From the NCBI GenBank assembly GCA_007050995.1, contig VJOU01000010.1, positions 1 through 64,000 of the forward strand: a stretch of 64,000 nt of DNA, given 5' to 3'. Position numbers and translations under genes: made by a program. Positions 4,740-25,668 of the stretch are shown here, piece by piece. Positions within the stretch are counted from its first letter, which is position 1, and the number at the start of each line of letters is the position of its first letter. The DNA is from Glycocaulis profundi. Lineage in GTDB: Bacteria; Pseudomonadota; Alphaproteobacteria; Caulobacterales; Maricaulaceae. The notes below the pieces were generated by a model. It had not been told where the DNA came from. It ran no database searches and saw only the letters and a list, made by a program, of their open reading frames with translations.

Positions 4740-6260
4740 TCAGTGCCCGGACAGACGCCGTTTCAGCTCATCCGCCAGCACGCCGCGCTCGACGGTGAAC
4801 TGCTGCTTCTGGGCCTTCCATTCCTCGCGGTCGGTCATGGCCTCGGCGAGCTCGGCGCCCAGCTTGAGGTCTTTCACCGTCGCCACGCCCTGCTCGCGCT
4901 CTTCAGAGCCCACTATGACCGCGAAGGCGGCCTCCCGGCGGTCGGCGTATTTGAGCTGCTTGCCCATATTCCCCCCGCCCACGAAGGCCTCCGCCCGCAG
5001 GCCCGCGGCGCGCAGCTCGGCGGCGATGGCGAAATACTCCGCCATCTGGTCCTTCTCCGGCGCGATCACGATGACGAGAGGATCGGCGTCCGCCGCGTCC
5101 AGACGGCCCAGCGCGCTCAGGGCCGCGGCGAAGCGGCTGACCCCGAAGCTGAACCCGGTCGCGGGCACGGCCTGCCCGGTGAAGCGGGCGACCAGATCGT
5201 CATACCGCCCGCCGGAGGCCACCGAGCCGAACTGCATCGGGCTGCCGTCGGGATAGGTGGGGGTGGCCAGCAGCTCGGTCTCGAACACCGGCCCGGTGTA
5301 ATAGCCCAGCCCTCGGACAACACTGGTGTCAAAATTCCAAGCTTTGGGGTTAATCTTGATCGCATTCAAAATCGAGGCTATTTCCTGAAGAGCCTCTAAA
5401 CCCTTTCGAGAGGTTTCGTTGAATCCTTGATAGTTAAACATATAGTCAATGTCGTTAGTATAATTTACATTAGAAATATATCCATCCCTGTAATTATTTT
5501 CATTATAAAAACTTAAATCTTTAGATAGCTCAAGAAAATTCAAGACCATATAACTTTGATTTTTACTCAGCCCCGCCCCTTCAGTGAAGTCACCGCTCTC
5601 GTCCCTGCGCCCCGCGCCCAGCAGCATCTCCACACCTTCAAGGCCCAGCCGATCAAGCTTATCGATCGCGCGCAGTACACGCATTCGGCTCTCCATCGAA
5701 GCCGCGCCCAGGCTTTCCAGCACCCCGTCCAGCAGGCGACGGTCATTGACCTTGACCACGAACTCGTCCGGCTGCAGCCCCGCGGCCGACATCACTTCGA
5801 CAGCCAGCGCGATCATCTCCGCGTCCGCCGCCGGTCCCGGCGCCCCCACGGAGTCCGCGTCGCACTGGACGAACTGGCGGAAGCGGCCCGGCCCGGGCTT
5901 CTCGTTGCGCCACACCTCGCCGAACTGATAGCGGCGGAAGGGCTTGGTCAGATCCTGAAAATTCTCTGCCGCGAAGCGGGCCAGCGGCGCGGTCAGGTCG
6001 TAGCGCAGCGCCATCCACTGGCCGTCATCGTCGGTCAGCGCGAACACGCCCTCGTTGGGCCGCTCCTCGTCGGGCAGGAACTTGCCCAGCGCGTCGGCGT
6101 ATTCGAAGGCGGGCGTCTCCAGCGGCTCGAAGCCCCAGCGCTCATAGACCGCGGACGCCGCGCTCACCAGCGCGCGCTCGGCGCGGATCACGCCCGCGTC
6201 GCGGTCTTCGAAACCGCGCGGGCGGCGGGCCTTGGGCTTGAAGGTCTTGGTCTTGGCCAT
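4740..6260 (-). CDS. hisS: Histidine--tRNA ligase with a mosaic central region
   Basis: 506 residues. Class II synthetase motif 2 (FGEVWRNEKPGPGRFRQF, about 113-130), the histidine-A motif (VRGLGYYTGPVFE, about 315-327), motif 3 (ATGFSFGVSRF, about 367-377) and a C-terminal anticodon-binding domain (from about 395) are all present, so the enzyme should be active. It charges tRNA-His with histidine in the cytoplasm. Oddly, residues about 231-311, between motif 2 and the histidine-A motif, are encoded by AT-rich DNA with low-GC codon use. This part is rich in Asn, Tyr, Ile and Lys and looks longer than I recall from other alphaproteobacterial HisRS. The frame is open throughout. Confidence 0.95.
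   Translation of the reverse strand: MAKTKTFKPKARRPRGFEDRDAGVIRAERALVSAASAVYERWGFEPLETPAFEYADALGKFLPDEERPNEGVFALTDDDGQWMALRYDLTAPLARFAAENFQDLTKPFRRYQFGEVWRNEKPGPGRFRQFVQCDADSVGAPGPAADAEMIALAVEVMSAAGLQPDEFVVKVNDRRLLDGVLESLGAASMESRMRVLRAIDKLDRLGLEGVEMLLGAGRRDESGDFTEGAGLSKNQSYMVLNFLELSKDLSFYNENNYRDGYISNVNYTNDIDYMFNYQGFNETSRKGLEALQEIASILNAIKINPKAWNFDTSVVRGLGYYTGPVFETELLATPTYPDGSPMQFGSVASGGRYDDLVARFTGQAVPATGFSFGVSRFAAALSALGRLDAADADPLVIVIAPEKDQMAEYFAIAAELRAAGLRAEAFVGGGNMGKQLKYADRREAAFAVIVGSEEREQGVATVKDLKLGAELAEAMTDREEWKAQKQQFTVERGVLADELKRRLSGH
5328..5570 (-). other. AT-rich in-frame segment inside hisS
   Basis: The composition changes abruptly. By my count 5461-5520 contains only 11 G/C in 60 bases, while the flanking hisS sequence is strongly GC-rich. 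The segment spans 81 codons in frame. Its last third (GLEALQEIASILN) still resembles the normal HisRS sequence leading to the histidine-A motif, so it looks like a divergent homologous block rather than an unrelated insertion. I saw no intein splice motifs, start codon structure or terminal repeats at its edges. Confidence 0.85.
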
Positions 6261-24070: not shown

Positions 24071-24110
24071 CCGGCGACCCCTCTCTCCCCTGTGAGAGGC
24101 TCCTCCTTGA

Positions 24111-24143
24111 CCCCCGCCCTTACCAGGCGGGGGTTATTTTTTG
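24111..24143 (+). terminator. Rho-independent terminator after the first GH13 gene
   Basis: Perfect 8-bp stem CCCCCGCC / GGCGGGGG with a 7-nt loop, then TTATTTTTTG, 41 bp past the stop codon. Confidence 0.9.
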
Positions 24144-24206
24144 AGATTTTCCGCAATGACATGCCATTGAACTAACCGACTTTCCCTTTCAGGCGAAGTT
24201 CAAGCT

Positions 24207-24222
24207 TTGCAAATTTATGCAA
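24207..24222. promoter_or_regulatory. Inverted repeat TTGCA-N6-TGCAA, copy 2
   Basis: TTGCAAATTTATGCAA lies 58 bp upstream of the second GH13 gene. It has the same 5-bp arms and 6-bp spacer as the site at 22091-22106, while the spacers differ. That points to the arms as the recognised part. Confidence 0.6.
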
Positions 24223-24279
24223 TCTGCTGCATGATCCTTCCCGAGAGCCCGACCAGAAGGCCGACCGGAGGAGACCATC

Positions 24280-25668
24280 ATGAAAACCGCCCTGTGCGCC
24301 GCCGCGGCGCTGTCCGCGATCCTGTCCGCCCCCGCGCTGGCTCAGGACGCGCGCTACGAGCCGCGCCCGATGGTCGAGATCGCGAGCCCCGACTGGGCGG
24401 ACACCGCGATCCTGTACCAGCTCAACACCCGCCAGTTCACCGAGGAGGGCACCTTCCGCGCGGCCATGGAGCGGCTGGAGCACATCCGCGATCTGGGCGC
24501 GGACGTGATCTGGCTGATGCTGATCCATCCCATCGGGGAGGAGGAGCGCAAGGGCACGCTGGGCAGCCCCTACTCGGTGGCCGACTACCGCGACGTGAAC
24601 CCCGAGTTCGGCACGATGGAGGATTTCCAGGCCTTCGTGGACCGCGCCCATGAGCTGGGCCTGAAGGTCATCCTCGACTGGGTGGCCAATCACTCGGCCT
24701 GGGACAACCCGCTGCGCGACGAGCATCCCGACTGGTATCTGCGCGACTGGGACGGCAGCTTCCGCCCCACCCCGTGGTGGGACTGGAGCGACATCATCGA
24801 CTTCGACTACACCCAGGCCGGGATCCGCGAATACATGACCGACTCGATGGCCTTCTGGGTCCGCGAGGTCGGGGTGGACGGCTTCCGCGCGGATGTGGCC
24901 GCCTATGTCCCGCTCGACTTCTGGGAGACGGCCCGCGAGGAGCTGGACGCCATCAAGCCGGTCTTCATGCTGGCCGAGGCGCAGATGCGCGACCTGCACT
25001 ACCGCGCCTTCGAGGCCAGCTACGCTTGGGACTGGAACAACACCATGCACGCCATCGCCCACGGGCGGGCGGACGCCACCGCGCTGTATGGCTACTACGC
25101 CGAGAACGAGAGCGCCTGGCCGCGCGAGGCCATGCGCATGACCTACATCTCCAATCACGACCAGAATTCGTGGGACGGCACCCAGTTCGAGCGCTTCGGC
25201 GAGATGCTTGAGCCCGCCATCGTCCTGTCCGTCACCGGCGACGGTCTGGCGATGATCTATAACGGCCAGGAAGCGGGCAACGAGAAGCGGCTGGAGTTCT
25301 TCGAGCGCGACCCCATCGAATGGCGCGAGCACGGGATCGGCGATCTGTACCGCTCCCTGTTCGCGCTGAAACGCGAAAACACCGCCCTGCACAACGGCGC
25401 GGCCGGGGCGCGGATGATACAGGTGGAGAACTCGGTTCCCCAACAGATCTTCTCCTTCGTGCGCCAGCACGAGGGCGAGGATGCGGACGCGGTGTTCGTG
25501 GCGCTGAACCTGTCGGGCGAGACGGCGGTGGCCGAATTCCCCCGCTCGCTGCATCATGGCCGGTATGTGGACCATGCTTCCGGCGAGGAGACGGAGTTCG
25601 GCGAGGGCGACGCGCTCGAGCTGGAGCCCTGGGGCTGGCGGGTTTTCGTCCGGCAGGGGGCGACATGA
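24280..25668 (+). CDS. Second GH13 alpha-amylase family enzyme, exported
   Basis: 462 residues, GGAGGAGACC upstream, signal peptide ending ALAQ (about residue 21). Catalytic motifs: ILDWVANHSAWDN (region I), GFRADVAAYV with Asp205, LAEAQM with Glu233, and SNHDQNSW with Asp294. It is shorter than its neighbour and lacks a large B domain. WWDWSDIIDFDY is typical of small periplasmic maltodextrin-acting amylases. Probably works with GH97 and the first GH13 to reduce starch oligomers to glucose. The zwf operon follows after 221 bp that carry a separate operator. Confidence 0.9.
   Translation: MKTALCAAAALSAILSAPALAQDARYEPRPMVEIASPDWADTAILYQLNTRQFTEEGTFRAAMERLEHIRDLGADVIWLMLIHPIGEEERKGTLGSPYSVADYRDVNPEFGTMEDFQAFVDRAHELGLKVILDWVANHSAWDNPLRDEHPDWYLRDWDGSFRPTPWWDWSDIIDFDYTQAGIREYMTDSMAFWVREVGVDGFRADVAAYVPLDFWETAREELDAIKPVFMLAEAQMRDLHYRAFEASYAWDWNNTMHAIAHGRADATALYGYYAENESAWPREAMRMTYISNHDQNSWDGTQFERFGEMLEPAIVLSVTGDGLAMIYNGQEAGNEKRLEFFERDPIEWREHGIGDLYRSLFALKRENTALHNGAAGARMIQVENSVPQQIFSFVRQHEGEDADAVFVALNLSGETAVAEFPRSLHHGRYVDHASGEETEFGEGDALELEPWGWRVFVRQGAT

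Follow-up and report, generated by a model that had tools for sequence, protein, structure and literature searches.

The only hisS gene of the genome carries an in-frame AT-rich block that was probably acquired by recombination with a HisRS homologue of low GC. The block sits where the gene appears to tolerate such exchange and to act as a hotspot for it. The gene lies in the window, by which we mean the whole 64,000-nucleotide stretch of DNA that was analysed. Its product matches the class II HisRS family TIGR00442 over the full length, with 367 bits against a curated cut-off of 287, and hisS is present in single copy, this being the one match in the whole genome. The features referred to below are as follows.

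4740..6260, minus strand: hisS, histidine--tRNA ligase, 506 aa (ORF list; NCBIfam TIGR00442; one match in the whole genome)
5853..5936, minus strand: motif 2 region RRYQFGEVWRNEKPGPGRFRQFVQCDAD, residues 109-136 (from the sequence; the loop bears a Gly, the derived alphaproteobacterial or Gly123 type, PMC3937112)
5568..5603, minus strand: upstream anchor DESGDFTEGAGL, residues 220-231 (nearly invariant alignment columns in 58 HisRS)
5328..5567, minus strand: residues 232-311, AT-rich and putatively replaced, forming the C-terminal part of the insertion domain (GC and GC3 segmentation, alignment with relatives)
5475..5522, minus strand: extra residues, approximate (about 247-262), longer first helix and loop (alignment gaps; AlphaFold helices)
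5328..5417, minus strand: residues 282-311, ETSRKGLEALQEIASILNAIKINPKAWNFD, AT-rich yet recognisably HisRS (Z up to 13.5 against the blocks of relatives)
5292..5315, minus strand: downstream anchor RGLGYYTG (histidine A motif), residues 316-323 (nearly invariant columns of the same 58-HisRS alignment)

An AT-rich block in the insertion domain of HisRS

The maximum-likelihood AT-rich segment of hisS spans 5317-5569, with a GC content of 0.316 against 0.696 in the rest of the gene and a log-likelihood gain of 63, and the lowest GC of any 150-bp stretch in the block is 0.24. Segmentation on third codon positions places the break at residues 232-316, where GC3 is 0.34 as opposed to 0.89 in the rest of hisS, the low GC3 extending past the aligned block to residue 316 (5313). 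By both segmentations, the in-frame AT-rich block that the earlier note had drawn at 5328-5570 is real, with limits that are right to about 15 bases. The frame is open across the block, for which the chance is 0.0009 at the block's own dinucleotide composition, and the five other frames contain 3-12 stops. In a survey of 1.26 Mb (35%) of the genome, hisS was alone among ORFs of at least 200 aa in having an interior 150-bp stretch below 0.45 GC, the nearest other case being one ORF at 0.45 GC that reads as uvrB. The only other stretch of the window below 0.50 GC (24082-24290) is mostly intergenic and lies between two alpha-amylase-like genes.

Mapping of GC3 along the gene, as the earlier note had proposed, returned the break at residues 232-316 together with a milder dip (0.55-0.70) that sets in already at residues 185-210 (about 5631-5708 of the window). 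A similar dip is seen in G019, a one-contig genome from the genus of Marinicauda pacifica. Given this dip, the imported DNA may extend beyond the AT-rich core, or two imports may have taken place.

The block is framed by two short conserved sequences. The upstream anchor has the consensus DESGDFTxGAGL and, like RGLGYYTG downstream, is nearly invariant across the 58 sequences, and between the anchors, from residue 231 to residue 316, there is not one invariant column. The block had been thought to fill the stretch between motif 2 and the histidine A motif, in the region of the insertion domain; the assignment to the domain holds, but the block makes up only its C-terminal part, and about 95 conserved residues separate it from motif 2.

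Block and flanks have different relationships

The named relatives place the genome in the family Maricaulaceae. In five congeneric species, among them Oceanicaulis sp. HLUCCA04 (recognised by its identical protein), a GC-rich block of 64 residues stands at this place compared with 80 in the window, in agreement with the earlier claim that the block lengthens the domain. Between the window enzyme and its close relatives the flanks are 83-85% identical and the anticodon domain 72-83%, but the block is only about 21-34% identical. All pairs of sequences with flank identity above 0.83 and differing block types gave values of 0.21-0.44 for the block and 0.72-0.93 for the anticodon domain. In a tree of the flank DNA, built with residues 185-320 excluded, the window gene falls within a group of genes that have the short native block, joined to them by a branch with 99/98 support. 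Two marks of a mosaic gene made by intragenic recombination are seen in hisS, namely an abrupt compositional break and a segment whose relationships differ from those of its flanks. On these sequence comparisons, flanks of about 85% identity around a block of 21-34% point to a replacement on the window's own lineage as the most likely course of events. Possession of the same AT-rich block by close relatives, which the earlier note had held to argue against a recent replacement, was seen in none of the relatives searched, and that objection therefore falls away.

Possible sources of the block

Searches of genome, viral, phage and plasmid collections with the block alone as query gave no donor, and neither did about 1200 sampled genomes (385 class, 398 order, 18 low-GC order and 398 phylum genomes), in which there was either no match or one to the generic tail of HisRS. 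Among outside matches over the block, that to the block of G019 scores highest, at 54.7 bits, with the next at 46. Over the tail (residues 282-311) the best outside matches are 50-62% identical, and it is this last part, 30 residues with Z up to 13.5, that still aligns with HisRS, as had been noticed from the sequence. The first part had been said to look novel, which is true of the middle of the block, where no relative can be recognised, but not of its start; the first 15 residues resemble the helix start VLxFLExSK, and VLNFLELSK in the window is close to the VLGFLEASK native to its own genus. The block start is closer to the host genus than to others, which would fit either a related donor or an edge that lies inside the block. 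From its composition, the donor would have had a GC content near 30%.

The palindromic elements of Rickettsia are in-frame selfish inserts, and they too give an in-frame AT-rich stretch in a housekeeping gene. The hisS block differs from them in that it has no inverted repeat or other copy and replaces native sequence instead of merely being inserted into it. The block lacks repeats, whether inverted or direct, of the kind expected of a mobile insert, no second copy was found in the genome, and a selfish palindromic insert was rejected on the lack of a relevant inverted repeat and on the single copy. The aph(3')-IIa mosaics (PMC4437187), an example of mosaic genes, share with hisS a sharp in-frame segment of different origin in a conserved gene with conserved flanks. 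The hisS case differs in being that of an essential synthetase in which one subdomain is affected, recurrently in relatives, and with no drug selection known.

The predicted fold of the block

AlphaFold models of the window HisRS and of a same-genus enzyme have mean pLDDT values of 88 and 89, respectively, and both contain a three-helix subdomain between the anchors. The helices span residues 233-258, 267-278 and 282-300 in the window enzyme and 233-244, 252-262 and 267-284 in the same-genus relative. The added length is taken up by a longer first helix and its loop, where the confidence drops to about 60. For the window model as a whole the best solved-structure matches are HisRS, with Z up to 36.6, and the catalytic, insertion and anticodon domains all adopt the HisRS fold. 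The replaced block is predicted to preserve the three-helix fold of the subdomain.

tRNA-His is constant across block types

The insertion domain of HisRS as a whole contacts the acceptor arm of the tRNA, and the earlier note had read the replacement as one that might matter for the recognition of tRNA-His. The tRNA-His gene was located by an Rfam scan; the tRNAs detected include one tRNA-His gene (GCCGCCT...AGGCGGTACCA), with G1:U72, A73 and no encoded G-1, the base at -1 being T. It is 100% identical to the tRNA-His of a congeneric species that has the native block. All 16 genomes compared, covering all block types, have the same acceptor stem, A73, no encoded G-1 and the same anticodon. A functional reading through a change of tRNA-His identity finds no footing in these data, and the constancy of the known identity parts over the 16 genomes rules out their change together with the block. 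The identity elements are the same across block types, and the swap therefore took place without a change of tRNA identity. Judged from these sequences, such a change would be neither cause nor result of the replacement, and a co-change is not supported.

PMC3937112 describes a derived HisRS/tRNA-His type (A73, no encoded G-1, Gly123) from this branch of the alphaproteobacteria, the RRCH clade. The window enzyme belongs to this type, with the Gly in the motif 2 loop, A73 and the missing G-1; the loop NEKPGPGR, whose Gly would correspond to Gly123, is invariant in the 58 relatives. The RRCH enzyme is horizontally derived, its tRNA-His having diverged along with it, and goes back to an ancient exchange of the entire gene (PMC3937112), whereas that in the window appears to be a recent and partial one with no such change.

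Probable recurrent exchange at the same place

On the flank tree of the Maricaulaceae, long and short versions of the block alternate, and at least five changes of block type are required. A single origin of all long blocks was rejected on this tree (p-AU 0.0003), while a common origin of the six long blocks of the Oceanicaulis type was not (p 0.13). These six species, including HTCC2633 and MMSF_3324, have a block of 68-72 residues and their neighbours on the tree one of 62-64. G019 has a 74-residue block of its own in its hisS (L002), with a GC3 of 0.56 against 0.89 over residues 201-298. Residues 191-310 of L002 look like an independent lower-GC replacement, and its sister M. pacifica has the short version. 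In another alphaproteobacterial family, the corresponding block of L075 (G310:C4 near 541377), at residues 235-351, is 54 residues longer and lower in GC.

When 115 distinct hisS genes were ranked by local GC3 anomaly, the window came first (53.8), followed by G019 (25.7), L039 (20.9) and L075 (13.5). Three of these four strongest anomalies fall on the same block, the exception, L039, being a divergent HisRS with its anomaly elsewhere. Further variants in block length and sequence occur in L013 (G008) and L014 (G025), from another genus of the Maricaulaceae, in genes that are GC-rich throughout. The region of the block is the least conserved part of the enzyme, and its length varies widely among alphaproteobacteria. 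We infer that the block is a hotspot of exchange in the HisRS of the Maricaulaceae.

Probable origin of the block

The explanation that we consider likely is that, in the window lineage, about 80-85 codons of hisS were exchanged for DNA that came from a low-GC bacterium whose HisRS was related. This would probably have occurred by homologous recombination between the nearly invariant flanking sequences, the anchors offering obvious start and end points. Recombination with a low-GC homologue had already been the earlier note's best reading, and it gains from the composition break, the phylogenetic break, the conserved anchors, the HisRS-like end of the block and the predicted retention of the fold. 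The hybrid must presumably work because it is the only HisRS of the cell; in the models it would keep the three-helix subdomain with a lengthened first helix, and the exchange would leave the identity elements of tRNA-His unaltered. The subdomain seems to accept widely differing sequences provided that they preserve its fold, and it is bounded by conserved DNA; imports would therefore survive there and not elsewhere in hisS.

It is unlikely, although several observations would suit it, that import was accompanied by selection, with an antagonist (a toxin, an inhibitor, a phage protein or CRISPR-type DNA targeting) striking HisRS or hisS at this subdomain, so that imports altering the surface or the DNA were kept. 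Replacement recurs at one place, several sequence types occur in close species and tRNA-His stays constant, and a CRISPR spacer against hisS has been documented in Pelobacter carbinolicus, where it may have shaped the genome (PMC2923632). The likeness is that targeting of hisS may influence how a genome evolves, and it extends to a possible driver only; the window genome, in contrast to Pelobacter carbinolicus, has no spacer or array in the 1.26 Mb examined. Tolerance alone suffices to explain why imports persist at the block, no antagonist was identified, and a search for CRISPR-like arrays that might target the genome itself gave none in this 35% of it. The wider proposal, in which the C-terminal half of this domain serves the Maricaulaceae as a hypervariable module for exchange and owes its lasting diversity to an antagonist of HisRS or of hisS DNA, we regard as quite unlikely.

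Divergence in place, in which a fast-evolving region drifted and became AT-rich with no import, would draw on the block being the least conserved region of the enzyme, with no invariant column at residues 231-316 and widely differing lengths between alphaproteobacteria. It is nevertheless very improbable, as the blocks of the same genus are well conserved among themselves and the window block is 31-34% identical to them, relaxed constraint on the protein does not explain a GC3 of 0.34 within a gene of 0.89, and no similar stretch was found elsewhere in the 1.26 Mb of genome examined. A chimera of two hisS genes made in assembly or binning is highly unlikely, for although the genome is in 356 contigs and the conserved anchors could join the sequences of two organisms, the sequence would have to switch twice, in frame, at anchors that are GC-rich here, the contamination estimate is 0.38%, a similar block is absent from every genome searched, and the same kind of replacement is present in the one-contig genome G019.

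Meaning for the HisRS of the family

Aminoacyl-tRNA synthetase genes are well known to be transferred as a whole. In the literature searched we found no report of hisS mosaicism, nor of the recurrent replacement of one subdomain in an essential single-copy synthetase within one family with the tRNA unchanged. The case described here indicates that an enzyme at the core of translation can have a small part of it swapped with no change in the tRNA that it serves. If the preferred reading of a low-GC import at a tolerant site is true, it marks the swappable part of HisRS and provides natural chimeras in which to test what the insertion domain needs in order to charge a tRNA-His that lacks G-1, part by part. 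It would also make a testable question of whether this is merely a tolerant spot or one where something attacks HisRS; were an antagonist responsible, a core translation enzyme would be evolving in the manner of surface antigens or phage receptors.
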